DNA of 64,000 nt from NCBI GenBank assembly GCA_033065855.1, contig JAVXUO010000086.1, positions 1 to 64,000 on the forward strand, written 5' to 3'. Source of the DNA: Escallonia rubra (lineage: Eukaryota; Streptophyta; Magnoliopsida; Escalloniales; Escalloniaceae). Both the position numbers and the translations under genes were made by a program. This document shows, piece by piece, positions 2,666 to 45,985 of this stretch; position 1 is the first letter of the stretch; each line of letters begins with the position of its first letter. The notes under the pieces are model-generated. The model worked only from the letters and a program-made list of their open reading frames with translations, was not told where the DNA came from and searched no databases.

Positions 2666-2833
2666 ATAGATTATATACAAAGACATTAACACGTGAAAAA
2701 AAAAATTAGGCATAAATCATCATCAGCACTATATATATATATATATATATCTACGGATGTGCAAAAACACATCAATAAACACCAAGTTCTAAAATGTTAC
2801 TACATTTTTCCCGTGATGTTACAACATTACAAG

Positions 2834-24770: not shown

Positions 24771-24788
24771 ATATATATATATATCTAT
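24771..24788. repeat. (AT)n tract at the left edge of element C
   Basis: Short AT-dinucleotide run ending in CTAT directly before the GGGGGCC terminus. The matching (AT)n at 30608-30637 lies outside the right terminus. Confidence 0.85.
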
Positions 24789-24876
24789 GGGGGCCGATCC
24801 CCATCGACCGGTGGGAAAAATCTAATTTTCCCACCCAATCGCTGCTCTTTGCGGCGATTGCATGAAATGCAAAAAA

Positions 24877-24993
24877 CCAATCGCAAGTCTTTCTTGCGAT
24901 TGGAATTATTGAAAAAAAATCCAATCGCAAGAAAGACTTGCGATTGGAATTATTGGAGCAGAAAGCCCAATCGCAAGTATTTCTTGCGATTGG
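24877..24993. repeat. Three 27-bp palindromes in the left end of element C
   Basis: At 24877-24903, 24921-24947 and 24967-24993: arms CCAATCGCAAG and CTTGCGATTGG around a 5-bp centre (TCTTT, AAAGA or TATTT). Mirrored by three at 30457-30483, 30503-30529 and 30547-30573. Likely protein-binding sites for transposition, by position. Confidence 0.9.
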
Positions 24994-26090
24994 TGTCGTC
25001 CTTTTTTATGTCCTTTTTTTCTCCCCTTCTCCCCCCGGTCAACAATCACGGCCTCATGGCCCCCACCCCTCCTCCGGTCAACCTTCCTCCCCCCCCCCTT
25101 GGCCCCCACCCCTCCTTTCCCCCGTCCTTTATTTATTTGTCACTTAATTAGACAGTTTTTCACGAATTTATAAAAAATAGCTAGAGCTAGATTTTGCCAA
25201 AGTGCAAAAAAGAGACCCTAGTTATTTTTAAAAGATATGTATCAGGTAAAAATTTCAGATTTTTCCAAATACTGGAAACGGGTAAACTGATACGCGCAAC
25301 CTTGTAACTTTGCAGTGTAATTTAAAATATCAAGCTAACGCGATTTCGCGCGAAACTTTTTTAAGAACCCTAGGATGTTGGGAAGTTCCATTTCCCAGGA
25401 ATTCGGGCCATTCCGAAGCCGTTAGCAATTTTTTGACGAACGGGCTTTTAAGCGCTCGATCCGGACACCGGTTCGGGATTTTTGGGCGAAAAATCCGTAA
25501 AATACTTTTTAGATCAAGAATGAACTCAGGAAGCTTAAAATAGCATTTTAAAGCACTTTTGAGATTTTTCCTGATGCCAGGGGCATTTTGGTAATTTGTC
25601 ACCCGCGAGGGGTATTTTGGTAATTTTACGGTGTCAAGTTTTTCGAAGGACTTCTCAGTCCATAAATGTAAGCACAGCACCTGAAAGGCTGATTTGAAGC
25701 CGATTCGCGGGGATTAAGTGTCGCTAAAGGTGAAAACTTAATTAGACAGTTTTTCACGAATTTATAAAAAATAGCTAGAGCTAGATTTTGCCAAAGTGCA
25801 AACAAGAGATAATGAACCCCTGAAAGGTTGTTTTTCAAATGACTGCTTAGTCCACAAATGTAAGCAAAGCACCTGAAAGGTTGTTTCGAAGCTGATTTGG
25901 GGCGTTAGGGTGATAATGAACCCCCGGGGGCATTTCGGTAATTTGCCGCTCATCGGGGGCTATTTTGGTAATTTTACATTATACAAATTTTCCAACAATT
26001 ACACTGCAAATAATTTTTATTCTTCTTTTATTTAATTCTATGACTTGTTGAGAATGATATAATTTTTATTTTTTAGATTTCAGTATAAAT

Positions 26091-26564
26091 ATGGATGCCA
26101 CTGGAGGAAGCAATTTTTTTGATGGTTCTAATCCACCTTACGTGGGTCAAGTTGTTCACACACTGGACGAAGTCGAAGCATACTACAGAGCATATTTGAA
26201 AACGATGGGTTTCGGTATTAGAACTAAGACGACTAGAAAACGGGTGAATACAGATCAAATTTGTGCAAGACTATTTGAGTGTCATAGAGGAGCACCGCAT
26301 GTACCCCTGGTCGTTCAGATCAGTGACGAAGGGACTACAAGACAAAGAAAACGGGACACATTTCTGGGTACCGGCTGCAAGGCCCATGTGTATGCAGTAC
26401 ACCGGAAAAATGAAAACCATTGGGTTGTGACGGGAGTGGACACATAGCGAAAGTGTGCGTTGTGTAATAAGATGACTGATCATGACAAGAGAAACCATTA
26501 TAGAGTGTTAGGTCTCGCACCTGGCAGTATGGTCGAGGAGGACGATGATGATGAAGAGTGTTAG
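26091..26564 (+). pseudogene. FAR1 DNA-binding-domain protein of element C, one in-frame stop
   Basis: The ATG at 26091 follows a plausible splice acceptor (ATTTCAG at about 26077-26083), so a leader intron is likely. The frame has 157 codons with one TAG at 26445-26447. The first 118 residues match the FAR1 DNA-binding domain (WRKY-GCM1 zinc fold): HTLDEVEAYYRAYLKTMGFG, then IRTKTTRKR and GTGCKAHVYAVHRKNENHWV. After the stop the same frame still looks coding: RKCALCNKMTDHDKRNHYRV, with a C-x2-C-x5-H-x4-H pattern, and an acidic end EEDDDDEE. FAR1-type domains occur in MURA-like transposases and in host factors derived from them. No MULE catalytic domain follows, so it is a DNA-binding-only protein or a remnant. 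Confidence 0.75.
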
Positions 26565-26673
26565 GGTTAATGTTTCAGTTGTATAACGAATAACTTTTAT
26601 AATGTTTAAATTTGTGATTTGGTTTGTTGAATCTTTAATTTGTGATTTGGTTTGTGGATTATTGATATTTTTG

Positions 26674-27349
26674 GAAGGGCCTATTCGCGCACACTTTAGC
26701 GCCCAATTCATAGCTTCCGAAAAATCTTGTAAATTTTTTGGTTCATTGCACCTCAGGCACGCTAGTTAGTCCATTCGTAAGAATTTCGGCGAAAAACGAG
26801 ACACGTTATTTTTTGGGTTTTCCTATGAAGGGCCTATTCGGGCACACTTTAGGGCCCAATTCATAGCTTCCGAAAAATCTTGTAATTTTTTTTGTCACTT
26901 TTTTTTCGCTCATTGCACCTCAGGCAAGCTAGTTAGCCCATTCGTAAGAATTTCGGCGAAAAACGAGACACGTTATTTTTTGGGTTTTCCTATGAAGGGC
27001 CTATTCGGGCACACTTTAGGGCCCAATTCATAGCTTCCGAAAAATCTTGTAATTTTTTTGTCACTTTTTTTTCGCTCATTGCACCTCAGGCACGCTAGTT
27101 AGCCCATTCGTAAGAATTTCGGCGAAAAACGAGACACGTTATTTTTTGGGTTTTCCTATGAACGGCCTATTCGGGCACACTTTAGGGCCCAATCCATAGC
27201 TCCCGAAAATCTTGTAATTTTTTTGTCACTTTTTTTTCGCTCATTGCACCTCAGGCACGCTAGTTAGCCCATTCGTAAGAATTTCGGCGAAAAACGAGAC
27301 ACGTTATTTTTTGGGTTTTCCAATGAACGGCCTATTCGCGCACACTTTA
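26674..27349. repeat. Tandem array of about 165 bp units between the convergent genes of element C
   Basis: Units start at 26674, 26827, 26994 and 27160 with GGCCTATTCG preceded by GAAG or GAAC, and a partial fifth lies at 27325-27349. Each holds CACCTCAGGCA, CCCATTCGTAAGAATTTCGG and a run of TTTTTTGGG. The units are nearly identical, so expansion is recent. They separate the 3' ends of the two genes, and the 3' coding end of the PMD gene runs into the last unit. Confidence 0.9.
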
Positions 27350-29094
27350 TCCCCCAGGCCCTGACTCTGGGGCTGAGAGCCGTACGCGTCAGGAGGCAAG
27401 CGACTAGACGGCTCCCCTTGGTAACCCCGGTACGCAACACTAAAGTTGTGAAGATCAGTCTTGTACCTCTCAATGGAGCTCTGAGACTGTCAGCCGCATG
27501 CGCGACATACCAATCAAACCGCTCGAGCTGCTTGAACACCTCAGTGCCCTGGTCAACCTAAAAAACATGCATAGAAAAATCACTGTCATCATTTCAGGCA
27601 TGGTCGAGAAGGTGCACAAATAAATATTGAAACAACACTAGGTTGACTTACAATGCTCAATGCCCAGAACTGGTCATAGACCTCGCGTGGCGCATACGAT
27701 TTGGTCCTCACTTGGGAAGGGCGATTCACCCTCGTGCGCGTCACCTTGAGAAACCACTGCAGGTACTCCTCAGTACTGGTGCCGTCGTCCTTGAGCGATA
27801 CAAGGCTACCATACGTTTCTTGCCAAGTATTCCACTGTTGCACATCGTCGCTCAGCAAATTCAAGGCATCAGGCACCTCAAAATTCGGACCTCGACCGTT
27901 CCTGTATGGCCGCATGTCTACAGCGGGTTTTGGTATCCCTTGTAGACAGCCAGCTTGTTTCATAGCTCGATCGGGCATCTGAAACTCACATACTTCGAAG
28001 TGAATAAGTGGCACCCGAACAAAACCTGCCAGCACGTACGACACCGGAAGTTGCCAACACAACTCATCCAACCGATGCATCACCTTCCCATATGGCTGCC
28101 ACGTCACCTGGGATGCATCCATCATATCTAGTTCCCCCCGATAGAACATTAGATGGTGGTGAGGGTCTACCCGTCTCCTCCGTTTGGTCGTAGGCCCCCA
28201 GGCCCACACCCTAGGCCACGTCTCATCGGAATCAGCTACGGGCTGTGGACGACCCGTGGGTAGCCTCTCGTAAGACCAAACCTGTGAACGCAAACATTAT
28301 ATGGAATTAGTAATTAATCACGAATATATTGACACGTCAACCAAGAATATAAATGCTCAAACCTGTAACAGAGTGATGCAGGCGGCAATGGACTTGGCAC
28401 CCTTTCTCGTAGCTTTGTGCAATGCTCGATATAGGTGCGCAAGGACAGCTGAACCCCACGAATACGAGTATACCTCCTCAAGATCCTCCAAGAACACCAT
28501 ATACTTCGGATGCACCGTGTTTTTTTTTGCGTCGGAAGTAATATAGATCCAGTAATATACAAAAAGGAATGCCTTCGTATACGTCACCAAATCATGAGGA
28601 GTGTATTCATCCGGTAGCTCGCCGTACTGCTCTCTCAGCCATTTAAGTTTTATGCCGTTGGTTGTAAGAGCGTCCCTCGGAATTCCCGGAAAATACTGCC
28701 TAGCCATCTTCGCTATGGATGCAGACGTTTTACTCGAAGTAATGGGTCTGCCGTGACATGGGATTCCAAGTATAAATCCGACGTCCTCTAATGTAATAGT
28801 CATTTCACCAAACCGGAAGTGAAATGAGTTCGTCTCGCCCCTTCATCGTTCAACTAGAGCGGATATAAGGCAATCGTCGTGCCAAGACCAAATCCCGCAA
28901 TCGGTGAACACGGTCAAATTTTGACGGTGTAATAGTTGTATTTGTTCCTCGTTCAGTACCCACTCGTCGAGGTGACTTGTGCTTTGAATTGTTTCCAAAA
29001 CACTCCTCTCGAAACCGTCAAATACGTGCCTCGCGACGTGGTCATCGTCATCGTATAGGATTGATGTATCATGAGGTCCAGGGTTGAAATCCAT
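27264..29094 (-). pseudogene. Plant mobile domain (PMD) protein, MAIN/MAIL-like, element C, one nonsense codon
   Basis: Exons on the minus strand: 29094-28363, 28281-27652 and 27557 to about 27264, joined by short introns (81 and 94 bp) with GT-AG ends in phase. An acceptor (TTCTTACAG) directly before the ATG suggests a leader intron. The product, about 540 aa, has the PMD signature: GPHDTSIL, then ISALVER, stop, RGETNSFHFRFGEMTITLED, FILGIPCHGRPI, SWGSAVLAHLYRALHKATRK and LLQVWSYERLPTGRPQP. The family has Trp at the stop position (TGA at 28843-28845), so one TGG-to-TGA change broke it. The 3' end, near the tandem array, is uncertain and may need another intron. PMD proteins are nuclear factors (MAIN, MAIL1) needed for silencing and genome stability, and the domain is also found inside plant transposons. 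Confidence 0.82.
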
Positions 29095-30456
29095 ATCTGT
29101 AAGAACAAAATATAATCGTAAACCAACTTAGCGTCCATAATATTTACATTCCAAAACTGTAACTGAATCGTTAACCTAGCTTACCAACGCATTAGCAATA
29201 GTCATTAAATCATTATTTTAATGTATTAAAATCATTCCTCACTTCCCACCACTCCGAACGCTTAATAACGCTAGTTCCCTAAAATTTAGCGCCAACGTGG
29301 TTATTTAGCAATATCCCCCCCCGATTTACGGGATTTTGCGCCCAAAAAGCCCGAACCGATATCCGGATCGAGCGCTTAAAAGCCCGTTCGGCAAAAAAAT
29401 TGCTAACGGCTTCGGAATGGCCCAAATTTTTGGGGAATGGAACTTCCCAACATCCTAGGGTTCTCAAAAAAGTTTCGCGCGAAATGGCGCTAGCTTGATA
29501 TTTTAAATTACATTGCGAAGTTACAAGATTACGTGTATCAGTTAACCCGTTTCCAGAGTTTGGAAAAATCTGAAATTTTTACCTGATACGGATCTTTTAG
29601 AAATAACCAGGGTCTCTTGTTTTCACTTTGGCAAAATCTAGCTCTAGCTATTTTTTATAAATTCGTGAAAAACTGTCTAATTAAGTTTTCACCTTTAGCG
29701 ACATTTAATCCCCGCGAATCGGCTTCAAATCAGCCTTTCAGGTGCTGTGCTTACATTTATGGACTGAGAAGTCCTTCGAAAAACTTGACATCGTAAAATT
29801 ACCAAAATACTCCTCTCGGGGTGACAAATTACCAAAATGCCCCTGGCATCAGGAAAAATCTCAAAAGTGCTTTAAAATGCTATTTTAAGCTTCCTGAGTT
29901 CATTCTTGATCTAAAAAGTATTTTACGGATTTTTCGCCCAAAAATCCCGAATTGATGTCCGGATCGAGCGCTTAAAAGCCCGTTCGTCAAAAAATTGCTA
30001 ACGGCTTCGGAATGGCCCGAATTCCTGGGAAATGGAACTTCCCAACATCCTAGGGTTCTCAAAAAAGTTTCGCGCGAAATCGCGTTAGCTTGATATTTTA
30101 AATTACACTGCAAAGTTACAAGGTTGCGCGTATCAGTTTACCCGTTTCCAGTATTTGGAAAAATCTGAAATTTTTACCTGATACATATCTTTTAAAAATA
30201 ACTAGGGTCTCTTTTTTGCACTTTGGCAAAATCTAGCTCTAGCTATTTTTTATAAATTCGTGAAAAACTGTCTAATTAAGTGACAAATAAATAAAGGACG
30301 GGGGAAAGGAGGGGTGGGGGCCAAGGCGGGGGGGAGGAAGGTTGACCGGAGGAGGGGTGGGGGGGGGGGGGGGGGGGGGGAGGGGGTGGGGCCATGAGGC
30401 CGTGTTGGTTGACCGGGGGCGAGGGGGAGACAAAATGGACATAAAAAAAGACCACA

Positions 30457-30573
30457 CCAATCGCAAGAAAGACTTGCGATTGGGCTTTTTCCTCCAATAA
30501 TTCCAATCGCAAGTCTTTCTTGCAATTGGATTTTTTTTCAATAATTCCAATCGCAAGAAAGACTTGCGATTGA
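30457..30573. repeat. Three 27-bp palindromes in the right end of element C
   Basis: Mirror image of the left set; one copy has a single change in an arm (30503-30529) and one in its last base (30547-30573). Confidence 0.88.
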
Positions 30574-30604
30574 GCTTTTTCCCACCGGTCGATGGGGATC
30601 GGCC

Positions 30605-30607
<3 letters not shown>

Positions 30608-30637
<30 letters not shown>
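30608..30637. repeat. (AT)n tract at the right edge of element C
   Basis: About 15 AT dinucleotides immediately after the CCCCC terminus. Confidence 0.9.
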
Positions 30638-30639
<2 letters not shown>

Positions 30640-30937
30640 GGCTATTTTTTAAGATTCCCAAGAATGCTTTTATAGCCAAGAACGTATTTTAGGACATTTT
30701 TTATTTGTCGTGGAGAACCTCATTAGCGACATTTGCTTATATAGCACCGCCGTTGTCACACCGAAGGTTCGGATCCCTATCCTCGCCCTTTTGTCTTGTA
30801 CAAAAAGATGTCACTGCAAACGTAGGCCAACCTTTTTAGCCCTCTCAGTAACTTCATCTCGCCGTACCCCGCCATTAACTTATTCCCCGAATTTTGACCG
30901 GTTTCTTCATGTTCTGGTGAAAATGAACATCTTGGCT

Positions 30938-30946
30938 TATATATAG
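30938..30946 (+). promoter_or_regulatory. TATA box of monooxygenase gene 1
   Basis: TATATATAG lies 58-66 bp upstream of the ATG at 31004. The following leader (CTACATATAACTTGATAGGC then CTCCA) is conserved with the leader of gene 2 (39896-39925), which supports a real transcription start between them. Element C ends only about 330 bp upstream. Confidence 0.7.
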
Positions 30947-31003
30947 ACTACATATAACTTGATAGGCCTCCAAGGGAAGGGGGAGAGAGAGAGAGAGAGA
31001 GAG

Positions 31004-34000
31004 ATGGATGCAAGAGAAGTGAATAGTCATCACGAGATCGTGATAGTTGGAGGTGGGATATGCGGCCTTGCCACAGCCCTTGCTCTGCACAGGTTGTTTG
31101 CTTTGCTTTCCTTTCCTTGCAGCTAAGTTACAAACTGATATAGTTCATCTAAGTCTAGTAAGATTTGACATATGCAGGAAGGGAATAACAAGTGTGGTTT
31201 TGGAAAGATCAGAGAGCTTGCGTGCATCGGGCGCAGCTATCGGCATCAGGCCAAATGGTTGGCGTGCCTTGGACCAACTTGGTGTTGGCTCCGTCCTTAG
31301 ACAAACTGCTCTTCCTATTCATGGGTATGCACGCCACTGATTTTTTATGTCTTTCTACCTTCTTCCTTTATAGCATATCTGCCTGAGCTTGCATTTAGAC
31401 CAGGCCAGCAGCATCTTTCCTGGAAGAGTGTGTCAACTTCACCAAAATGAAATTATCGCAAGAAAACATTAGAGTACATTGATCATGAGACTTGAGAGCA
31501 TAAAGAAACTTCCAATTTGGAAAAAGATAAGGCTTTCCTACAAGAGGACCCAAAGATTTTGACGTCAAAAACTTACATTTAAGAGTGGGTTTTGATGTGA
31601 TTTATGATGGTACTTGTCGTTGTCAGATTTCATTTTTATGGGTACTGTGTCGTGCAGGAGAAAGATCTGGCGATCTCCTGGTTAACAGCGACACTTCCAG
31701 GATTGCTAAAGAGGTTTCTAACTTCATCTCGCCATCCCCAACCACCGAACATTATTACTTTAACATCTACAATATCCAACCTTCACCACCGACGTGCAAT
31801 CAGTTGAAAACGAAGATAGAAGAGGAAGATTTAAGACTTGCGATTCAGTTGGAGCCAGATCTGGGTAACTTAGAAGTACACATTGATCGATTTTACAACA
31901 AGAAAAATAAAATTTCGATCGGTGGTTAAATGCGGATCGGCAACTGTGATAAGGTTGAATGGCAGATAATCGTAGAGAGAGTGGATGGGGTGCCTCTGAG
32001 GTAAGATCGTGATGCTGGTTTCGCGTGTAGATCGGTGGTCGGCAAGTGGCCGGACGTGGGGGTGAGAGGGAGATGAGACGGTGTTGTCTCGCTTTGTGGT
32101 CACAGGAAGGTGAAGGTGTGTCGCCGGCGATCGGTTGCAGAGAGAAGATTGGGGTACGTACTGTTGTGGACTTCACGCTGGGAAGACGGCCGTCTCTCCT
32201 CCGAACGCTGCGTTTTGGACAATTTTAGCTGCTTTGATGACGTGGCATAATCTGGTACATCCATTTTGATCGGACGGCTATAACTAGAGTTACAGCATCT
32301 CTGCTGTAATCCTAGTTTTACAGCATCTCTGTTGTAATCCTAGTTACAGCAGGCGATCCGGACCCATATCTGTGCGATTCCTAGTTAACAGCATTTGAAG
32401 ATTGCTAAAGAGGTTTAGAAACTATTTTATTGATACTTTGGATAATTATTTTTAACATTAATCTTTAATATTGTTAAATCGATTTTAACATCTAATAGTG
32501 CAAAGTTGTCAATCGCTTTGGCATATTTCGACGATTTTTACAATCAATTTTTGTTCTACTGGAAGAACGTTTTAAGTGCACATTGAATGCTGAATCTTTA
32601 CAACAAAGAAAAATAAATTTTCGTTCGATTTAAATGTTTGATATGACTACACGAGACATTTTTCACTTTCCAATAAGTATACAAATATGCTAGTGGATTT
32701 ATTTTGTTGTACACTTAACACTTTCTTTTTTCTGACTCAAGGGGACGAGAAATATGGATCGGGAAGGACAAGCAGCTAGAAACAACAATGTAAGTACATG
32801 TGTTGTGCATATTAAGTCTAGTTTTAAAGCGTGCAAGTCACAACTGAGCGAGAATCCATTATCCACCAAAACTCGGATGTGTTATAGATATTTAGTTCCT
32901 TGATTTGAAAACGCTATTATTTTGGTAAAAAGGACTTGGTATGAAATCCACTTGATAACGAGCTCTTTATTTTTATTTTGACCTATAAAGTTACTTTATC
33001 CTTGACCAAACCTAATTTCAATTAGGGTTGATCAGATTTAACGCCATTAAGGTTTCTTCTTATTACAGGGGACTGATTGTGGTGTGAAACATATAAGTCC
33101 ACGTACACCAGCGTAGAAAACTTTATTAATTGGATTTGTGAAATGACGATTTTGACCTCAATGACGTTCAATTATTTTACTCACATAAACTCAACTTGTA
33201 GCCAGACATTTCTAGTTTGAAATAAAACAACTTTAAACATAAGACCAAACAATGCTTCTTCTTCTTTATTAATCCCTTCGTCCCAACTTTTTTGACCAGG
33301 TTTGGCTTGTACATACTTATTTAGAGTATGAGTCATATTATATGAGTTTTTTTATTCTATCCCAAGAGAAAAATAAAGAGAGGGAAGAAAGAAAGTGGGA
33401 CATGAGAGAGAAAATGTATTTGTAGATGATAAAATGTAGAGAGAGAAATATAAGTAAAAAAATACAGTATAAAAAATGTAAATATGAAAAAATACCTATA
33501 GAAGTTCTTAATTTGTAAAGTCATCAATTTTTCTTGAAACCAACCAAAAAAATTTGTAATAGTCCATCGGATGTGATTCTAATGCGTACGAGTAAGGAGG
33601 GCAAGACACTTTTCCGTTATATTTTGTGACAGTTTCTTAATGGAACGGGACTTGGTGTAAAACAATTGCAAACCACAATGTGTTCAATCTAATTTCCCAT
33701 GTCAGATGTTGTTGAGTGTGATAAGACAAAGCTGCCCAGTGTAATTAACCTCTTCGGTTGTTGGTTTCACCTAGGTAGTGCTGATCAAATCACACAACGC
33801 TGTGTTTTTCTTATGACGTGTACTACATAAATAAATGGTTGTTATATATTTTTAATGACTTTTATTTACTGACGCTAAAAAAAAGGCTGTTAAGAATTCA
33901 CGTTGAAAGGGTTAACAGAAAAAGTGACTAGAAATATTTAGCGACTATTAAATGTCACTATATACGAGATTGGTAAAAGATTCTTACAACTCGGGTAACG

Positions 34001-36318
34001 GTCAAAGTTTGTTCAAATAATACAAGTGGAATCTCTTAGCAAAGGTTGAAGAAGAAGACATGAATTGCAACTTTTTGACAGGCCCGGCGAAAATCGTTGC
34101 TTGAAGCGGAGTGATCTTATCAATACTCTTGCCAATGCTTTGCCGCCCCAGACAATCCATTTTAGCTGTCAAGTTGCCTCGGTCAAACTGAACCTTCAAA
34201 CTACTTACCCAACTATTCATCTTCAAGATGGAAGTACTATTGAGGCCAAGGTAATGACGCTTTACCTTCATCTCAGTTGTATAGAACTATTTGTCAAAAG
34301 GTAAACACATGCTTGAAAATGCCATAGATAATTAACTTGCATGAGTAGCAGTCAAAAGGGCGAAGATGTTGTCGGGGATGCGATTCTATGTTTGGCAGCT
34401 CTTTATTTTTGTCTTGTGAATACATCTGCAATTGTAATGCACCCTCCGTAAACGTTGACATTTCATTACTACCGAGAAATATTGTAAGATGATCATCTTA
34501 TGAACTTGTGAAGTAAAGAAGCATAAGAGTCTTTAATCTCTCCTTACTGACGGTAAAACCCATTTGCAACTTTGGTTTATTTCCTTACCAAAAACATAGC
34601 TGCAACAAAACACTAATTAGCTTGGGAAGAATCATATTTAGATCCTACGATACATTACAATATTGCATGCATCTTCAGTCAAACGTGTAGTTCAAATTTT
34701 ACGGGGTGCGATGGAGAAGGAATATCTCGTTCATGGTTTTGGAATGTCACAGGTTTTGATCGGGTGTGATGGAGCTAACTCAGTTATTGCAGATTTCCTT
34801 GAGCTTAAGCCTACGAAACTTTTCAGCCTTCTTTCTGTAAGAGGTTTAACGAACTACCCAGATGGCCATACATTCGGCCAGGAGTTTGTCCGGATGATGA
34901 AGAAAAACACTTTAACTGGAAGAATTGCAATTGATGATAAGTTGGTCTATTGGTTTGTTTCTCGGCACTCGACTCTGACTGGTAGTCTTTTTCTTCTCCT
35001 CCTTGATATCATTTTTGAAACCAAATGACCATGCAGAATTGAACTAAAAAAATGACCAGGTAGAAGACAGATTGCCCCTTCAACCACAACCATTTGCCAA
35101 AATACTTCATCTGAAGTAGTCCGGTACCAACCCAAATCATTGAAAAGGGTGTTAAAAGGCCCACTCCCATGCACAACGTAGCAAAATTAGGATGCTTAAT
35201 TAAGGGTAATATTACGAGCATGATAAAATTAATGATTGTGTTAAGAGATGATTAAACATAGGATATCCAGATATCATAAAAAGATGTATCAGTAGAGAAT
35301 TTCAGTTTACAGACGTGCATGGGTATATTTTACTTCCTTTGTCTACAAAATATTGTCCTCCTTCCTATTTTTGGATGTCTACACAAATTTGTCAATTTTG
35401 AAAACTCAAGCATTTTTATCGCTGGTATTCGTTTTTTACCACCCTATTTAAAGCAATTAAAGATGTCAATATACGAATGTATTCCAGCGCATTGAAATTG
35501 GAAACAATAGAGTCTAGTTAACAGCAGTCATCTACCCCTCCTCAAACTATGTGAAGTCAAAGAGGACAATTTTGTTTACAGATTCTCCTTGTTTAACAAT
35601 TTTTACACGGTGTGAAGTGGTGATAAAATTGCTTAAAAGTGGACAATATATTTTTTGTAGACATTCGTAATTCTCGAAAGGTTGACATTTTCTATAAGGG
35701 AGTCATAAACTGCAGTTGCCAAAAGAATTTTCATTTTTGGTTATTTCTATGTTTCTGATATAGATTGTACATTTGTACATATGAATAGGCGGAGAGGTCT
35801 CAAACAATCCGGAACTCATCAGACAATCAACTCTACAATTTTTAAAAGACTTCCCGACAGAGATAACAGAAATGATAGATACTAGCGACCCAGAATCTTT
35901 GTCATTAACACATTTGCGATATCGTGCACCATGGGACTTGCTATTCGGAAGGTTTCGTAAGGGAACAGTAACAGTAGCCGGAGATGCAATGCATGTAATG
36001 GGTCCATTCCTTGGACAAGGTGGTTCGGCAGGTTTAGAAGATGCAGTAGTGCTTGCTAGAAGCTTGGCACAGAAGATGGCAGATCTTGATTCTGTTAATT
36101 GTGGAAGGACAGAAATGGTTAGCAGGATTGGAGAAGCAATTGACCAATACGTAAAAGAGCGGAGGATGAGGGTAGTGCAGTTGTCAGCTCAAACATATCT
36201 TATTGGTATGTTGTTGCAGACTACCTCAATGCTGGCAAAGATCACTAGCATTATGTTCATGTCTATTCTCTTTGGAGATAGAGATGCTCACGTCAATTAT
36301 GACTGTGGCACTCTTTGA
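31004..36318 (+). CDS. FAD-dependent monooxygenase gene 1 (MO1/CTF2-like), six exons, intact
   Basis: Exons 31004-31092, 31178-31324, 32742-32789, 34082-34250, 34753-34981 and 35789-36318 splice with GT-AG borders in phase into 403 codons with no stop. Family: flavin-dependent aromatic hydroxylase fold (FAD_binding_3), as in plant MO1/CTF2 proteins and zeaxanthin epoxidase. Seen: the dinucleotide-binding GGGICG (residues 16-21) in [40 protein letters not shown]; the DG motif GCDGANS (155-161); and the GD motif AGDAMHVMGPFLGQGGSAGL (about 290-309), which binds FAD ribityl. The C-terminus has a hydrophobic stretch, AKITSIMFMSILFG. No plastid transit peptide is evident; it starts almost directly with the Rossmann fold, so a soluble, cytosolic enzyme is likely. 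The substrate cannot be read from sequence. A TATA box lies at 30938. Intron 2 carries an insert. Gene 2 is a tandem paralogue. Confidence 0.93.
31720..32398. repeat. Insert in intron 2 of gene 1, flanked by an imperfect direct repeat
   Basis: The stretch is bounded by two copies of a GTTAACAGC ... GATTGCTAAAGAGGTTT segment (31680-31719 and 32384-32415). Between them is a GC-richer sequence absent from the corresponding intron of gene 2. It includes two near-identical words AGCATCTCTGCTGTAATCCTAG / AGCATCTCTGTTGTAATCC (32298-32342). No terminal inverted repeats or poly(A) tail were recognised, so its class is unknown. Confidence 0.55.
33271..33560. mobile_element. Possible Stowaway-like MITE remnant
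   Basis: Begins with CCCTTCGTCCCAAC, like the common plant CTCCCTCCGTCCC terminus, followed by a purine-rich GAGAGAGAAA interior. The right end was not found. Lies in intron 3 of gene 1. Confidence 0.35.
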
Positions 36319-37372
36319 TGCATAAGCTACAACTTCGACGCATCACGTTCTCTACAGGATTTGAAATAATCTGGGTTTGATGTTAAAAACTACTTATTTT
36401 ATGTTATTCAAAGGTTTTGGTGCACAAAATTGAGCCATCATCTCCATGGGCCTTGCTTACGAGATGTAATATGCAGAAAACCTCTTGGTACAACGGAAAA
36501 GATATCTTGTTTTGGTATAGGTAATTTTATCATTTTCTATGCGACGTCCAAACAGCAGTAAAAGAAATCCATGAAAATATTTTTAGGAGCTGCTATCTCC
36601 TGAAAAGCTTATTTCAAAAAGCATTCTATGTTGAAGTATTTTTCGTGAAACAAACAGGGCTATAACCTCTATGCGCATCATATGCTTTAAGGGTGTTTCC
36701 AGTATGAAGCTAATAGCTTGAAAATCCTTGTATAGACTATCAAAATTATGGTTGAACTGGACTCTGAATGTTTTTCCTTACAGTATCAAAATTTAGCAAC
36801 ACATTTACACCTCTGGTAAAAGTGATGGAGAAAAATTGAAGCACCGATTCAAAAACTTGTTAGATACAAGTTGGAAATGGAGAAACAACTTGGCTTTGGT
36901 TGGATCAATAGACCCTCCATGGCCCTATTATAAATAAACTATCATCGCCGTATCGTTTTTCTTGGTACTAGAAGTTTTTAGGACACAAATTGCTAATCTC
37001 TTGTGACATTTTAAATAGACAACGGCAATATTCACAACAGGCAATATTCACAACAACTAGAGTCTTAAAGTATGCAAAACAACTGCAATGGCCCTTGCAT
37101 TATGCTACCAGATTGACAAAACTCTCAAAACATTCCATGTCTCAAACAACTTTTTTTTTTTTTGGAATTGATGTCTCAAACAACCTTGATATAGCTAAAA
37201 TTGACCACGAATGTTGTTGGCACAAGGCAACTCGGCGAAACACTCTAAAATAAAGTCAACCCCCCCGTAAAAGTTGGGCAAGACCCTTTGACCAAGCTTC
37301 CAGAATATTCAGCAAGCTCTTATGGGATTTAATTCTACTAGTGTTCCAACTCCTTACACATGAAACATTGAA

Positions 37373-37409
<37 letters not shown>

Positions 37410-37768
37410 CCTACTTTTCTCTAAGTTACTGCCTGTAAGAAGTGAGCATCGGAGAATTTCCCTGCTAGAGCCCTATAAGCGGTCACTCAGTTTCTCTTTT
37501 GCAGTTCAGATTCCTTTAATTTCCTTTGTTCCATATACTTTTTTTTGAGAAGCACCAAATTAGCGTCATTCTTATTACCACGATTATGGTAAGGAATCAT
37601 AGCAAGCCAGTCACATCATACTAGTCAATCTTTTTCACTCATAGGTTTTCAATCATTCAAATCGCACCCTTCTGATCATGGTAGAAGTCAGGAGTGACAA
37701 GTTAAACGAAGAAATATGTCGGAGCCATCCTGTCTTGACTCTCTCACTGAGGATAGAGAGCTTCGCCA
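36319..37768. other. Region downstream of gene 1
   Basis: AT-rich intergenic DNA. It holds a (CA)n microsatellite at 37374-37407 and a duplicated word ATGTCTCAAACAAC (37138 and 37171) around a T-run. I see no gene. Confidence 0.6.
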
Positions 37769-37834
37769 TTGCATCAAGTGGTGTCTCTGGGATGGCCCTC
37801 TAGCAGATATAATATAAGAGATCCATCAGCTAAT

Positions 37835-38165
37835 TTTTTTTCATACTACCCTCCCGGACACCCTGGAGCATCACACAGATATTGCGTGCTAATTTGCGCA
37901 TCGGTCTCATCATGCCTCTCACAATTGATCCTTCTGCCTCTCGGCACATCAAAGTTACAATTATGGCTACGACTACCCAGCCGATTCACAGATGTACCAC
38001 ATGCCGTACACGCTTTAGGCGTGGTACTTCAAAGACATGCAGTTCTTTTATTTATCCCCGACTCAGAAATACATCGGTTGTGTTCGCACTTGCTTCGGGG
38101 CAGAATTCTTCCCCACAGACCGACTCCTGTCTTAAGACATCCTTTTTCAATATACATAAAAGAAG
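37835..38165 (-). pseudogene. Possible decayed Cys-rich coding patch, family unknown
   Basis: One minus-strand frame, broken by a single TGA at about 38019-38021, reads GLWGRILPRSKCEHNRCISE before the stop and CTACGTSVNRLGSRSHNCNF after it, then CERHDETDAQISTQYLCDAP, with evenly spaced cysteines and no low-complexity bias. Plus-strand frames overlap it. I do not recognise the family, and coding status is uncertain. Confidence 0.25.
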
Positions 38166-38405
38166 TAGAGCTCCCGCCTAAGTACAAGATGACCCATATG
38201 ACACCTATGCCTGTGCAGACGATCTAGGTGAACATGCATATTAGTTCGAGACCAAACTCCAAGTTTTTTAAGAAGTCCAATGTCGCACCTTCTCAACCAT
38301 GCTTAGATGGCCTCTAGTTCAAGGAACTTCCCCTTCATTCTATCTCGGTTTTTTTGTCAACTCCCAGATTAATTCTGAAAGCACTTCGTGGTAGTCGTGT
38401 GCATC

Positions 38406-39040
38406 CAGGGGCGGACCTACCTTGTAACTTGGGGGGGGGGGGGGGGAGAGCTGAAGCACCCCTTGACTTTTGATTTTGATTTTTTTTTGGCAATTGCACC
38501 CCACCTCTCAGTTCTCTCTCCTTGAGACCCCGTCCCAGACTCTCACCTCTGTCTCTCTCTCTTTAGATCTCTCTCTACGTGAGTCACTCAGACCGGCAAC
38601 GACCAGACCAAACGGCCATGACCCACTACCTTGTGACTCCGTGAGTCGTGACTCGTCAGTCGTGAGCGGTGAGCCCGTGACGCCGGTGATGGCCACTCGT
38701 CAGATCTGGACTGGAGACAATCTCACCGACCATCGAGAGGTCTGAGACACCGACGGTGGCAACGGCCAACGGGCGACGGTCGCGGACAGACGAACATTCA
38801 GATCTGAAACATTTCTCATTTTCTCTAGCTGTTCGGCTGACGGGCAATTGCTATGCCGGCAACGCCGCGACGGGGAGGACTGAGAATTCTGCCGGTGACG
38901 TTTGCAAGTTCCAACCTCTTCTTTGCTCTGCCAGCCAGGCGCCGACGACGATGATGCGACGATGAGGCTCAACAGTGAACAACAGTCTACAGCAGCCTTA
39001 ATTTCTTGAATTTGAGGTAAGCTTGGCTATTTTCAAACAA
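38406..39040 (+). mobile_element. Left end of a hAT-like element (truncated)
   Basis: CAGGGGCGGA at 38406 is a common plant hAT terminus, followed by a run of G (38431-38446) and a CT-rich, leader-like stretch ending in a plausible splice donor (GAGGTAAGC, 39013). No transposase and no right end (TCCGCCCCTG) were found. The small open frames here are compositional. Confidence 0.5.
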
Positions 39041-39410
39041 TCTGATTTAGTTTAATTCTAGAAATCCGTATTGACATTTTAGTTTAATTTCAGTAATTGA
39101 TTCTATAGAAACATTTTTGGTTAATTTGCTTTGCTAATTCTCAATTGGTGATTATAGGAGGCCATTTTCCTTCTTCTAGTTTCTCTTTCGTTACTAGCTA
39201 ACGCCATCCACAAACTGTAAAGGCACTCCTCGACAGGGCTAAACTGTACATAATGGCAGAAGATATCTTAACGATCGTTTGGCACGAGCCAATGTAAATA
39301 AAAAAGGAAAACTAAAATAGTACTTATATGTTATGTTAACACGACCACTTAGATATTCTATGTAATAAGATTACGTGCAATTTAGAGAAAATATTAACTT
39401 CAATTTCAAA

Positions 39411-39614
39411 TAGGTGTGCAAATGGACAATTTTTTTACTATGCACAAACCGATTAAAACCGACCAAAGCGAACAGTTTAAACTGACTATACCAGACCGTC
39501 CAAACCAACAGTGTTTAATTCAGTTTTGTTCGGTTCAACATTTTTTCAGACCGACGAGTCTCGGTTTGTGATTTGACCTTCAAACCGAACTAAATCTAAC
39601 CGTGTTCATCCCTA
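39411..39614. mobile_element. Small hAT-type MITE remnant
   Basis: The ends TAGGTGTGCAAATGGAC and (reverse complement) TAGGGATGAACACGG resemble common plant hAT MITE termini. The interior has GGTTCGGTTT-like words on both strands. No target duplication is recognisable, so it is old. Confidence 0.5.
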
Positions 39615-39889
39615 CTAATTAGTTGAATATATTTGAGGATTATTAGATGGTAATTTTGAAAGCCGTGAATTGTAAAGTCGGCTATAAGTCACCACTAGAT
39701 ATCGTTGGATCATATTACTGGTGCCGTTGTTTATACGGTATTGTCAAGTTATAAGATATAATTGTTACTACATATTTTATTGAAACGTGATTGTTCAATA
39801 TATATGAGATGTAAAAAAGTACGTAGTATTTGTTATCATCGTTTTACACGCCTGATGAGTGAAATAAAAAAATGGAGTCGATTCTCGGC

Positions 39890-39897
39890 TATAAATA
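39890..39897 (+). promoter_or_regulatory. TATA box of monooxygenase gene 2
   Basis: TATAAATA 44-51 bp upstream of the ATG at 39941, followed by a leader similar to that of gene 1. Confidence 0.75.
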
Positions 39898-39940
39898 CAC
39901 TACACATAACTAGCTAGGCCTCCACGAGAGACAGAGAGAG

Positions 39941-42690
39941 ATGGATGCAACAAGTGAAGTGAATAGTCATCACGAGATTGTGATAGTTGGAGGTGGAATA
40001 TGCGGCCTTGCCACAGCCCTTGCTCTGCACAGGTTGGTTGTTTGCTTTCCTTCCCTTGCATCTTACTTACAAACTGATCCCAGTTCACCCAAGTCTGTTA
40101 AGAATATGGTGTTGCTACACCGTGACCGTAAATATGCAGGAAGGGGATAGCAAGCGTGATCTTGGAAAGATCAGAGAGTTTGCGTGCTTCGGGGGCAGGC
40201 ATCGGCATCAGGCCAAACGGTTGGCGTGCATTGGATCAACTTGGTGTCGGCTCCATCCTCAGACAAACTGCTCTTCCTATACATCTGTACGCCACTGATT
40301 CTATTTGTGTCTGTCTATTTTGTTTCTTTGTACCATATTTGCCTGATTATCGGCTTGCAATTTTCTTTCTTTAAGGCGTACCCTACACATGTGCCAGCAG
40401 AATCTTTCCTCGAACAGACTGTCAACATTGCATTTTTTTTCCTTTTAACACGTGATCTCCCCAAGTGACGAGGTGTTCAGACTTCTTAATAATGCACCGG
40501 GCTCGAAATTTTAAGAGTCCATTGATCACGAGACTCGGAAAGAAGGAAAAGGGTGACCCTCTCGTATAAAAGGACTCAAAGATTTGACGTCTTCATTCAA
40601 GAATGGGTCATGTTGTGATTTATCCGAGTCCTTCACACAACAACAACTACTAAATTTATTAACACGTTCAATAATACTTTCTAAAAAAACTTATTTATTC
40701 CCATTGAATAGTTGCCACCAAAAGTATGCAACTATTATTTAGTGTTGCCCCATAGAAAAATCAATTATGTTTCATCAATCGAGATAGTACAAAAACTTTT
40801 CTTGTCCTGGGACAAGAAAAGTTTGTTCTATATACGTAGCATCCAATAGTACAAAGTTGTTGATTACCTAGTATCCTTCTGCATTGATCAATTGTTGTTC
40901 TATCAGGTGCACTCAGCCTTCCTACTTTTTTCTCTTTACCGTGTACATTATTTGCAGTATGTTTTATGATTCAGGCACCGTTTATTTACTATTTTCATAT
41001 TCAGCTTTTATAATGATGACCAAAACAAATTTCATTTATCGTGTACGTTTATCATTTTCTATTTTTATTTTGAAAAAGTATAACTCAAATAGTATGAAAA
41101 TGTGAAATATTTTAACCTTTTTCCAGCAGCCTCTCACCCAATTACAGAAAAAAAGTAGGTAATTTTTTTTTTTTGTTAAAATGATAGAAGTATAAAATTA
41201 TATTTTCTTACTAGATACGAAAATAACGAAATGAAAATGTGAAATAAAAGCTGCAAATAAAAATGATAGATGGAAAGGCCCTACATTTTTATCTATCTAA
41301 ATTTAAAATTTAGATGTGACTACACAAGATGTTCTGCACTTTCGAACAAGTATAAGAATGCTAATTGATGTCTTTTCCTGTACATCTAACACTACTTTCT
41401 TTTACTCCAGGAGAAAAGAAATATGGCTTCAGAAGAACGATCATCGAGAAATATTAAGGTAAGTACATATACGGTGCATACTAATCTAGATATCTATATA
41501 ATAAGCGAAGCGAGAGTTTCTTTACGTAACACATCATCGAGAGATAACTTCTTTACGTCACACGTCATCGCATTATGTTTTTAATGTGAAATAAAATTAT
41601 AACCATTATAAGTGTCACTTTAGGTCTAAAATATTATCTTGGATGTGGTTCTTATTTCTTGATAAGTTAATTTTCGTATTATTAAACCTTATATAATTAA
41701 AAAATAATAATTCTAAACATTCTAAAATTCTAACAGATTCATGAACTAACTAATTAGGACTTAATTTTGACTATTACATCCTTAAAACCACTCTCTAATA
41801 TGATTATAAAAATTCATATATCTTAAAAATGAAAATAACATACTGGATTTAGAAGAGAAATAAAATGATGTTACAATTGAGATTGAAACAATAGAAATAA
41901 TGTAATAATTCGTAATCAATGTAATGATTTGTTAATATAGTATAATAGCTTTCATAATCCTTTTGTTAAATAAAAAATTTGACATTATTTTTTGGGTGGA
42001 ACCGCAGAAACAAATGAGAGTACAATTATTATTAATTAAAATTGTAATAATGATAAAGCTTATTCATAATTCTGATAGGTGAAAAGGACTTAAAACTGTA
42101 TACTAAATATGTCAATGTATCTAAAGGTATGCAAATATTATTTTGGATGTGGCCTTATTTTTAAGTTTATTTAATTTTGCGGGAACTATATAAGCGCTAT
42201 ATGAGGAAGCCTTATATAATGTGAAAACTAATTCTAAAACTTTAAGTATACGAAATTTCTAGGATTTGATTTTGACTATCGTGTTTTTAAAACTAACTCT
42301 CTCATACGAAGACAAAAAATCACGTATCTAAAAGATATAACTTATGGATATTTAGAAGAAAAAAATTATATTACAATTAATTTAAGTGTCTTGTAATGTA
42401 ATAAATGTATGTGTATTTACACGTAACATCGTCACTGAAAAAAATTATCTATATAATATATAAAATTGATAACCAAATCATAGGATAAGTTTTTGCTTTG
42501 ATAAGACCGGACAATCAACAAAGTGGCTATATAAGCATATATGAGATTTTGAAAAGAAGTCACATATGTATTAAAAAAAGGTGCAATCAAATCAAACAAT
42601 TCTTAATTATTATATTTGAGAAAATTTAAAACCTTTAAGACGCAAAAATATGATATGACTATTATATCCTAAAAATCACTATCGAATATA

Positions 42691-42723
<33 letters not shown>

Positions 42724-44402
42724 GGGAGTTGATCCGTTGATAGCGCTAGCAAAATGGGGTATTTTGCTAGCGCGATCTGGCCGTCCATCCCGAAAGATGG
42801 GCGGCCCAGATCTTTTTTTTTGCGTTTTTTTAAGTACGTCCGCTACATTATGTAGCGGACAATTTTTTTTACTTTTTTTGACAAAAATACCCTTTGTGCC
42901 CATCCGCTACATTATGTAGCGGACAAGTTTTCAGATCTTTTTTCTCTTTCTGTCTTTAATGTTCTGGCAGAAATGACAGAACATCAATGTTCTGTCTCCG
43001 AGTCCGTCCGCTACATTATGTAGCGGACAAGTTTTCAGATCTTTTTTCTCTTTCTGTCTTTAATGTTCTGACATGTACTGTCTCCGAGTCCGTCCGCTAC
43101 ATTATGTAGCGGACAAGTTTTCAGATCCCGTTACGTCCGCTATATTATGTAGCGGACAAGTAGACAGTATATTTTCTGACACATCTCTCTTTCACGTCAA
43201 TTTCTCACTTTCTCTTGTCCTTTCTCTCTCTTTCTCTCTCTTCTTTTCTCCTCAGTATGTTTGGAACAAGCTCAGCATTCATCCTCCTGTATTGATTCAG
43301 CAACTATACCTTTTAACAAACAGAAATTACAACTGAATGAGAGCAGACAAAGGAGCCAAGATTGGAAAGCTGGATGGAGGATTTTACCCGTATTTGGAAC
43401 TCCGAAGCTCACCGCCTGACTCCTTTGAGCAGAATCCGTGGCTTTCAATTCCTCTGTCTACTCTGATAAACAATATAAACACACAACCAGAGAGCTAAAA
43501 GGCCAGAAAACTCCTTCCCGAGGAAAGACTTGCCACAGTTTTCGGGATATGAAGCATATGTTTGTAGTATCAAGATGATAGGGAGGTGCTGTTCACGAGA
43601 AAACAGAGGAAGAAGAAGAAGAAGAAGCTGTTTGGTTAGAGAGGTTCTGGATTCAGAGATGGGGTCAGAGATCCTCGCCGTCCACATCATCGTCGATGTC
43701 CCGGCGCCGCTTGTCCTTGTAGTCTTCCTTCAATATCTTCTCGCCCAGTCCGGTATGTTCACCGGCAGCGACGACGCCGTCCCCCCGACCACCGCCTTAG
43801 CCCTCTTCGCCGCTGCCAGCGGCTTCTTCCTCGAACTCACCATCGGTTTCCTGTAGTTCGGCGAGACGCCGCCGCCGCCGACCGAGCTCCACACGTCCGA
43901 TTCGTCGAGCTCCAAGCCCAAGTCTAGCCCGATGAAAAGAAAATAAAAGCACAGATGAAGAGAATTTATTCGGTTGTTGAAGAAGAAGCAAATGAGGAAT
44001 GGGGGAGTGGAGTGGGGACAGCGAGAGAAAGAAAGAGAGATAGTCAGAACATAAATGAGAAAGAAAGGACAGAGAAAGAGATAGTCAGAAAGTCCGCTAC
44101 ATTATGTAGCGGACAAGTTTTCAGAGAGTATTTTTATCAAAAAATTGTCCACTACATAATGTAGCGGACGGATTTAAAAAAAAGTCAGAACAGTAGTCTC
44201 GATAGTCCGCTACATAATGTAGCGGATGGGCACAAAGGGTATTTTTGTCAAAAAAAGTCAAAAAATTGTCCGCTACATACTGTAGCGGACGTACTTAAAA
44301 AAATGCAAAAAAAAAAAATCTGGGCCGCCCATCTTTCGGGATGGACAGCCAGATCGCGCTAGCAAAATACCCCATTTTGCGAGCGCTATCAACGGATCAG
44401 CT

Positions 44403-44448
<46 letters not shown>

Positions 44449-45951
44449 AGCTGATCCCTTGACAGCGCTGGCAAAATAGGACATTTTGCCAGCGCGATCT
44501 GGCCGTCCATCATGAAAGATAGACGGCCCAGATATTTTTTTTTGCGTTTTTTTAAGTCCGTCCGCTACATAATATAGCGGACGATTTTTGGACAAAAATA
44601 CCCTCCAGCTCCGTCAGCTACATTATGTAGCGGACAGAGACAATACTTTTTTTTCTCTCTCCTTTATCTGATTAATTTTCTGACATGTTTCATGTCCGCT
44701 ACATTATGTAGTGGACAATTTTTTGACATAAATCTATCCGCTACATTATGTAGCGGACAGAGACAGACTCTTTTTCTCTTCTCCTGACATGTCTGCCTCT
44801 CATGTCCCCTCATTTCTTCTTCTTCTTCTCTCTCTCTCTCTCTTTCTTTCTCTCTCCTCTCCATCCTCCTTGCAGCAATGAAAACAACCCACAACACTGC
44901 TGGGCTGGATGAAGAAGCTCAACCCAGAGATCAATGGCGTGAACGGCTCCGAATCCAACCCCACGTCCACCACGGACCCCCACTCCACTCGAGTCTTCTT
45001 CGACAACAAGTCCCACTTCGTCGACCCCGATCCCGGCCACTCCTTCCAGGCCATCCGAGCCAAAATCTTCGGCTCCAACGACACCTCCCTGAACCCGGCA
45101 CCAATGAACGGCTTCGCACAGCAAGCTGAGTCCATGGAACCCGACATGCCCCAGAGAGTCATGAACGGGTTCGACCCCAGCATGATCCCCGTCTACAAGA
45201 CATTGGTGTCCGAATTCGCCGTCTTCGACCGGTGGTTCGCCTCCGTCCCTTCCTCCACCCAGCCTAACCGCCTCTACGTCCACTCCGCCACCTCGCACGG
45301 CGCCACCAGCAACATCCCCTCGTTGCTGGTGATGGAGAACCGGCGTCGCCGACTCGCCGCAGCAGAGGCGTTCGCCTCCTCCCCGAGCTCCGACCACCAC
45401 AACCAACAAACCCACGAAGACGCGCCCCCGCCACGCGTGATGGGTTCGTGGGTAAGCAGCCATGGCTGCCGTGAGAATGTGAGGGCGAGGGGATTGGTGC
45501 GCCTGTGTGTGAAAAAAGAAGGAGAGGCCGTACAAAGTTTCAACGGCCATTCAAACTTTGCGTAAGATAATCGGAAAGAGAAAGAGAGAGAAGGACAATG
45601 AGAGAAAGGACAGAGAAAGAGAAAAAAAAATTAGTCTGTCTACTCGTCCGCTACATAATGTAGCGGATGGAATATGAGAGTATTTTATCAAAAAATTGTC
45701 CGCTACATAATGTAGCGGACGGATTTAAAAAAAAGTCAGAACAGTAGTCTCGATAGTCCGCTACATAATGTAGCGGATGGGCACAAAGGGTATTTTTGTC
45801 AAAAAAAGTCAAAAAATCGTCCGCTATATTATGTAGCGGACGGACATAAAAAAACGCAAAAAAAAAAGATCTGGGCCGTCTATCTTTCATGATGGACGGC
45901 CAGATCGCGCTGGCAAAATGTCCTATTTTGCCAGCGCTGTCAAGGGATCAG

Positions 45952-45985
<34 letters not shown>

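Follow-up and report, generated by a model that had tools for sequence, protein, structure and literature searches.

Mutator-like elements in AT microsatellites of Escallonia rubra, and candidate partners with a transposase and a convergent gene predicted to fuse a plant mobile domain to an Ulp1-type protease

A 64-kb stretch of Escallonia rubra DNA (contig JAVXUO010000086.1, positions 1 to 64,000, here called the window; source genome 566 Mb in 3222 contigs) contains three transposon-like elements, A, B and C, that are set in AT microsatellites and have similar outer ends (Table 1). Element A contains a plus-strand open reading frame (ORF) with a FAR1 domain (E 4.6e-10) and two minus-strand ORFs with a plant mobile domain (PMD), while B and C are shorter and lie next to each other, sharing the AT run between them. 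As an earlier sequence-only reading of this DNA had proposed, AT runs are found at all borders of the three elements; with a threshold of at least 12 bp, the five runs around them are accompanied by a single further one in the window (2730-2750). The outer (AT)n flanks of B and C adjoin (GT)n runs at 42690-42708 and 45982-45995, and compound microsatellites also surround some of the related loci fetched from elsewhere in the genome.

Table 1. Positions of elements A, B and C, their AT flanks and their internal features in the window.
Feature	Position	Strand	Remarks
(AT)n left flank of A	24771..24784		CTAT separates run from element
Element A, transposase-deleted Mutator-like element with long terminal inverted repeats (TIRs)	24789..30607		both ends GGGGGCCGATCCCCATCGACCGGTGGGAA; 20 related loci fetched
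Left TIR of A	24789..25809	+	94% to right TIR across 969 bp
Three iterated inverted repeats CCAATCGCAAG-5nt-CTTGCGATTGG in left TIR of A	24877..24993		period ~44 bp
FAR1-domain ORF, N-terminal remnant of 777-aa transposase frame	26091..26447	+	body (~1.83 kb) gone at ~26440
166-bp tandem repeat, 3.7 copies	26734..27349		between transposase remnant and PMD gene
PMD gene remnant	27349..29094	-	two frameshifts and one stop in exon 1; open exon 2 at 27652-28281
Right TIR of A	29613..30607	-	
Matching iterated inverted repeats in right TIR of A	30457..30582		less regular
(AT)15 right flank of A	30608..30637		
(AT)n left flank of B	42709..42723		adjoins (GT)n
Element B	42725..44404		200-bp TIRs at 95.5%; no transposase domain found
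Iterated palindrome GTCCGCTACATTATGTAGCGGAC in left end of B	42838..43114		more copies at 44092-44290
(AT)21 common to B and C	44405..44446		array junction, 42 bp
Element C, non-autonomous	44447..45952		TIRs ~335-360 bp, 78% alike; right end without terminal GG
ORF with Phosphoesterase-family (PF04185) fragment in C	44882..45565	+	E 1.4e-30
(AT)n right flank of C	45953..45981		

Self-BLAST revealed long TIRs, a feature by which Mutator-like elements (MULEs) are recognized, in all three elements, the longest being those of A (~970 bp). The outer ends are also alike: the 11-mer GGAGCTGATCC at the right end of B and the left end of C agrees at 9 of 11 positions with the GGGGCCGATCC of A, as had been claimed, whereas the left end of B, GGAGTTGATCC, agrees at 8 of 11 and the right end of C has lost its outer GG; this similarity of A-type and B/C-type ends was judged by position counts. 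Most A-type ends and all B/C-type ends conform to the consensus GGRGYYGATCC or come near it. A genome search with a 29-base pattern of the A-type end, allowing at most two mismatches, gave 540 matches (264 + 276), the exact 23-base end of the B/C type gave 1225 (618 + 607), and reversed-pattern controls gave 0 in both cases. Both kinds of end are repeats far beyond chance.

The TIRs of these elements contain iterated palindromes. Those of A are inverted repeats with arms of 10-12 bp and a 5-bp spacer, while the palindrome of B and C, GTCCGCTACATTATGTAGCGGAC, has 11-bp arms around one base. The sequence-only reading had described them as perfect palindromes iterated in the terminal repeats; the iteration is evident, but the spacer in A and the frequent imperfection of the outermost B/C palindrome do not fit with perfection. 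In the A-type copies that were examined, the palindromes stand at corresponding positions, and in the copy on contig C16 the CAATCGC/GCGATTG core recurs in a different arrangement. It is plausible that they serve as protein binding sites. Another possibility, which we consider open to doubt but worth keeping in view, is that the palindromes arose as side products of hairpin formation or template switching in fold-back TIRs, a proposal that draws on the palindromic ends reported for MuTAnT and other fold-back MULEs (PMC4486113) and on the imperfection, in many subfamilies, of the outermost B/C palindrome. When 50 of 58 matched ends (32 distinct; 8 shifted or divergent ends dropped) were compared at this palindrome, 78.8% of cells were paired, whereas 1000 shuffles averaged 75.3% and reached at most 78.1%. 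Pairing fell to 19-28% when the 3' side was slid by -3, -2, -1 or +1, and column pair 24/44 had many two-sided changes while three others had one to three; with pairing just above that of the shuffles, covariation is weak as proof that this palindrome has been retained. Against a by-product origin stand the recurrence of the CAATCGC/GCGATTG core in A-type palindromes and, rearranged, on C16, and the behavior of the inner half-site GTAGCGGA: of its 158 plus-strand occurrences in 20 C-type loci, 141 are matched by a partner no more than 14 bp away, while a scrambled 8-mer occurs 0 times; a structural origin remains compatible with both observations. Other iterated palindromes, TTAGCGACGGA...TCCGTCGCTAA, are present at 483-755 of the window, one of them perfect over 44 bp (683-726), and perhaps belong to a different small transposon.

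The position of these ends relative to AT repeats was analyzed at related loci. Using the first 312 bp of A as a query, 589 candidate places were obtained, of which 40 were scored and 20 loci fetched. BLAST placed 36 A-type ends in 19 of these 20 loci (none in L020; L009 has a third end that comes from an adjoining element), and 34 of the 36 adjoin AT repeats, which are short or imperfect at the left end of L015 and at both ends of L022. The remaining two are both ends of L018, the sole one of the 19 loci that lies outside AT repeats, and here the flanks read ...TTATTTTAGAA / element / ATTTTAGAAATAC..., revealing a 9-bp target duplication, ATTTTAGAA. A duplication in the 8-11 bp range typical of MULEs was therefore found in one A-type copy, and none was seen for the B/C types. 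A tally of 85 zero-mismatch A-type ends on contigs C9 to C1004, from the total of 540, found TATATA 0-2 bp before 75 of them, and inspection by eye of the B/C-type matches in the window and the fetched loci found TATATA or ATATAT in the preceding 14 bp for 56 of 58, one of the two misses (in L044) being no real end. The (TA)n flanks that characterize the MuTAnT and SaTar elements are thus present at both types of end. The sequence-only reading had proposed elements with related outer ends in AT microsatellites, and had named a majority of copies in non-AT flanks with a clear duplication as the outcome that would speak against it; the proposal holds for the ends examined, in which that majority did not appear, and the one copy with a non-AT flank and a duplication accords with expectation for a MULE that prefers (TA)n.

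AT repeats also join elements to one another. B and C are joined by their common 42-bp run, and at L009, L015, L016, L022, L025 and L026 an AT repeat separates an A-type end from the end of another element. Such stacking has been described for SaTar elements (PMC5907723) and for the mMITEs of pineapple (PMC8449440). Among the AT-run borders in the window and the fetched loci, 92 of 264 bear an end motif, and nearly all of these are the A-type or B/C-type ends that were used to choose the loci. Five border motifs are singletons, one of which is a B/C-type end with an insertion, so that about four hint at further families.

One explanation for this arrangement is that the (AT)n tracts are largely made by the elements, with weak targeting of short TA-rich sites followed by strong expansion as gap repair stutters into long (TA)n. 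For example, empty sites of maize TAFT elements are reported to have just short TA tracts that grew after insertion (PMC5907723), empty sites of MuTAnT have on average fewer repeats than occupied flanks (PMC4486113), and the two flanks of A differ in length (14 vs 30 bp). However, the MuTAnT empty sites still average nine TA repeats (PMC4486113), and L018, outside AT repeats, has a plain 9-bp duplication without TA expansion, so we regard an origin mainly by expansion as rather unlikely.

The coding content of A is explained by comparison with longer relatives. Bases 1042-1652 of A are 97% identical, and bases 1656-2561 are 93% identical, to locus L057, in which 1.83 kb lies between the two matching parts; because both sides of the gap in A match L057 in this way, the FAR1 ORF is a leftover of a transposase. 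In addition, the PMD gene in the window retains just the first 209 bases of its Ulp1 exon, with one frameshift, and its protease part is gone. Element A therefore derives by deletion from an element of 11-13.6 kb, and the deletion lies inside the transposase frame. With that frame cut short, PMD exon 1 broken and the protease part lost, A as an intact gene carrier was rejected, and the view of A as a non-autonomous, gene-carrying member has to be replaced: its ORFs are relics of a larger element with a transposase and a PMD-Ulp1 gene. The fetched stretch of L057 stops short of that element's own outer ends, and repeats similar to the 166-bp tandem repeat of A span ~1.4 kb up to its edge.

Longer relatives of A are numerous. 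The FAR1 ORF of A gave 150 scored matches, from which 11 were set aside (the window copy, nine fetched copies that lack the transposase, and C1881); of the 139 others listed, 86 belong to long frames (at least 700 aa, mostly 777-780 aa), and in three of these 86 (C435, C202 and C3165) a stop interrupts the matching part. FAR1, MULE (PF10551) and SWIM domains were identified in two such frames, that of L057 (777 aa; MULE E 7.4e-33) and that of L062 (779 aa; MULE E 6.9e-33), so a transposase with the domain diagnostic of MULEs is present in the A type. Several length classes of long frames (777, 779, 782 and 783 aa) occur among 150 MULE-domain places listed, a hint that several MULE families may have open frames.

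Complete copies place this transposase and the PMD-Ulp1 gene between A-type ends. The element at C16:73102-86748 (13,647 bp) has an A-type end, inverted, on both sides, each next to TATATA. Its right half, which is L062, comprises the end, repeated inner TIR units and the open 779-aa transposase frame on the minus strand, while the left half contains, by coordinates, PMD exon 2 (76861-77490) and the Ulp1 exon (77793-78659), both on the plus strand. Elements on C79 (300400 to ~312420; 779-aa frame) and C390 (70404 to ~81804; 777-aa frame) also have two ends next to TATATA and, by coordinates, PMD and Ulp1 exons in the order seen on C16, and C1004 has two A-type ends 12,948 bp apart with a 528-aa frame. 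Among the matches listed, all 57 transposase-Ulp1 pairs separated by at most 10 kb are convergent. For the 86 long transposase frames, a convergent Ulp1 exon was found within 12 kb in at least 40 cases, a convergent PMD exon in at least 39, both in at least 23 and either in at least 56; three further pairs within this distance, on C1121, C1638 and C2694, are not convergent, the PMD exon on C1121 being that of an adjoining A-type element. Inner TIR units of A are repeated several times upstream of full transposase frames in L058-L061 and L062, and the TIRs are therefore longer there than in A.

The second gene of the full element is best seen in L027, a copy without the transposase, where a gene model of four open exons and three GT-AG introns (81, 94 and 84 bp) predicts a protein of 870 aa. 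Pfam assigns PMD to residues 72-421 (E 1.6e-69) and Peptidase_C48 to residues 648-853 (E 5.7e-21), with weaker overlaps with DUF7745 and DUF1985. When this protein was compared with solved structures, the best match was SENP2 (E 5.8e-9), with alignment of a His, Asp, Gln and Cys that we take to be the catalytic residues of SENP2. The gene is thus predicted to encode a PMD fused to an Ulp1/SENP-type (C48) protease. DUF1985 occurs together with Ulp1 domains, and published Ulp1 proteins of MULEs may have a PMD-like front part that has been named DUF1985.

Ratios of nonsynonymous to synonymous polymorphism (pN/pS) were pooled over the transposase-less copies plus the window copy. The values were 0.96 for FAR1 (11 copies), 0.94 for PMD exon 1 (19 copies, of which 11 are frameshifted in this exon), 1.60 for PMD exon 2 (19 copies) and 0.56 for the Ulp1 exon (19 copies, 11 of them over the first 208-209 bases only), compared with 0.50 for the transposase of the single pair L057 and L062. 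We read these ratios as suggesting that constraint is relaxed in A-like derivatives and acts on the transposase, with the caution that the transposase value comes from one thin pair and that the Ulp1 value fits neutrality poorly. It is highly improbable that the FAR1 and PMD ORFs of A originated as host genes that a non-autonomous element took up and retained because of their function: although PMD (PMC5418596, PMC8616336) and likewise FAR1 also occur in host genes and PMD exons are open in several transposase-less copies, the FAR1 ORF is 85-92% identical to the listed matches, 86 of them forming the N-terminal part of a long frame (at least 700 aa), the DNA on both sides of the gap in A matches L057, and the pN/pS values of FAR1 and PMD exon 1 are near 1, with exon 1 so often frameshifted.

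Elements B and C have other contents. The interior of C (44860-45560) is nearly whole in L039 and L040, larger parts of it occur at more than 95% identity in nine other C-type loci, and short traces occur in six more. The longest plus-strand ORF scanned matches Phosphoesterase only and its sequence recurs in these sister copies, so C as a decayed carrier of a transposase, or a decayed coding member as the sequence-only reading had it, gives way to an element that holds a putatively captured phosphoesterase fragment. C is Pack-MULE-like in this respect and is itself a putative MULE. For B, the two interior ORFs scanned had nothing above the Pfam cut-off, and its interior had no match in the fetched C-type loci. 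Among 100 ends listed, 21 two-ended elements of the B/C type were found, 17 of them at most 2.2 kb, one of 5.3 kb and three of 8.3-8.4 kb (C23:58552-66988, C54:172802-181090 and C387:42182-50509), and these three could be autonomous partners of B and C. In six cases a listed MULE-domain place and a listed B/C-type end are separated by at most 12 kb; in four of these the place lies on the inner side of the end, ~1.7 kb away at C142 and C163 and farther at C131 and C85, and in two it lies on the outer side. The hypothesis that one transposase serves all three elements is unsupported, as is their union in a single group: inner TIR sequences and palindromes differ, and similarity is confined to the outer motif. 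Of the earlier proposal, the related ends in AT repeats stand.

Taken together, A, B and C are very probably MULEs whose lineages have a strong target preference for (TA)n microsatellites, and it is because of this preference that all three would lie in AT repeats. A 9-bp duplication would be made at each insertion and be invisible inside (TA)n. Because every insertion would leave (TA)n on both sides, elements could be stacked end to end, as in the B-C array. The full element of 11-13.6 kb would encode the 777-779 aa FAR1-MULE-SWIM transposase and the convergent PMD-Ulp1 (C48) gene, and its deletion derivative A would be mobilized in trans by this transposase. B and C would represent separate families whose outer ends are similar and which depend on a related transposase, with the cargo of C captured in Pack-MULE fashion.

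Several points weigh against this explanation. The fetched loci are the top-scoring matches and the 85 tallied ends come from the first listed contigs, so neither is a random sample. Ten of the 85 lack TATATA, among them the left end of A in the window, where CTAT intervenes, and one end of L018; C450 and C1004 lack it at both ends, as judged from pattern positions only. An A-type subfamily, comprising L027 and many ends genome-wide, reads GGGGTTCGATAC and has no GATCC. With evidence from occupied sites only, part of the (AT)n may be the result of growth that followed insertion. For the C16 element, the content of the left half is known from coordinates only, and the PMD exon on C79 has one stop. 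The pooled ratio for the Ulp1 exon is below neutral in copies that lack the transposase, and that for the transposase has a thin basis in its single pair. For B and C, the MULE-domain places near their ends are the sole hint of a transposase.

Comparable elements are known from other plants, as far as the available portions of the published accounts describe them. MuTAnT and AutoMuTAnT of Medicago truncatula also are MULEs in (TA)n with a 9-bp duplication outside it, long fold-back TIRs, terminal GGGG and a putative autonomous partner; AutoMuTAnT is 4.9 kb with a single ORF, whereas the full element described here is 11-13.6 kb and has PMD-Ulp1 as a second gene (PMC4486113). The SaTar elements of guayule and rice, which include Micron, are non-autonomous MULEs in (TA)n that form mixed-family arrays without nesting, with autonomous MULEs of similar TIRs in the same sites, as here, but they are 0.4-1.9 kb, have 10-bp duplications in guayule, and the available text makes no mention of a 'mobile domain' (PMC5907723). 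The Ac-mMITEs of pineapple share the (TA)n preference, clusters, 9/10-bp duplications outside microsatellites and two families with related TIRs, but they are miniature inverted-repeat elements only, and in the available text the authors report that no autonomous partner was found (PMC8449440). TAFT elements of maize, likened to ours by description only, are flanked by TA repeats (Wang and Dooner 2006, cited in PMC4486113, PMC5907723). These published relatives are classed as MULEs (PMC4486113, PMC5907723, PMC8449440), so the suggestion that such elements are hard to class does not apply to this kind.

The second gene also has precedents. Kaonashi (KI) MULEs and the ULP-MULEs of grapevine carry an Ulp1-domain gene, which in KI-MULEs is reverse to mudrA as in the 57 listed pairs above, and ULP is also present in melon TIR-MULEs (PMC13317346, PMC2528002). 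KI-MULEs are non-TIR, unlike the elements here, which have long TIRs, a (TA)n position and a PMD preceding the Ulp1 domain (PMC13317346). MULEs of grasses and Amborella carry a PMD-C for which the authors guess an anti-silencing use, but it is fused to the transposase, while here the PMD lies in a separate, convergent gene fused to Ulp1 (PMC5418596). It is therefore known from these published sources that MULEs can target (TA)n with 9-bp duplications, arrays, related TIRs and autonomous partners (PMC4486113, PMC5907723, PMC8449440), that Ulp1 genes occur in MULEs reverse to the transposase (PMC2528002, PMC13317346) and that PMD can be fused to a transposase (PMC5418596). The literature searched, mostly without subscription papers, yielded no match for a MULE that has TIRs, lies in (TA)n and combines a transposase with a convergent PMD-Ulp1 fusion gene, and no paper in which 'plant mobile domain' and 'Ulp1' appear together. 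This combination appears to be a new variant.

One function that can be proposed for PMD-Ulp1, by analogy with the VANC/KIU proteins and the MAIN/MAIL silencing pathway, is that of a family-specific anti-silencing factor. VANC/KIU proteins are reported to act on motifs of related elements (PMC13317346), the MAIN/MAIL pathway to involve PMD (PMC5418596, PMC8616336), and PMD to be found in angiosperms only (PMC8616336). PMD-Ulp1 would recognize the palindromic motifs of the TIRs and remove SUMO from a host silencing complex, opening motif-bearing elements, whether full-length or deleted like A, for transposition. This model is speculative and on balance unlikely to hold, but, if true, it would explain the joint persistence of the motif arrays and the PMD-Ulp1 gene.

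In Medicago (PMC4486113) and guayule (PMC5907723), candidate autonomous partners are on record for MULEs that target (TA)n. The genome of Escallonia rubra contains many copies of a candidate partner with open transposase frames, so that expressing this transposase would allow the preference for (TA)n to be put to the test. In addition, a domain of a plant silencing pathway and a SUMO-type protease are predicted to be joined in a single transposon protein, and the published guess of an anti-silencing role for PMD or Ulp1 domains carried by transposons thereby becomes directly testable.

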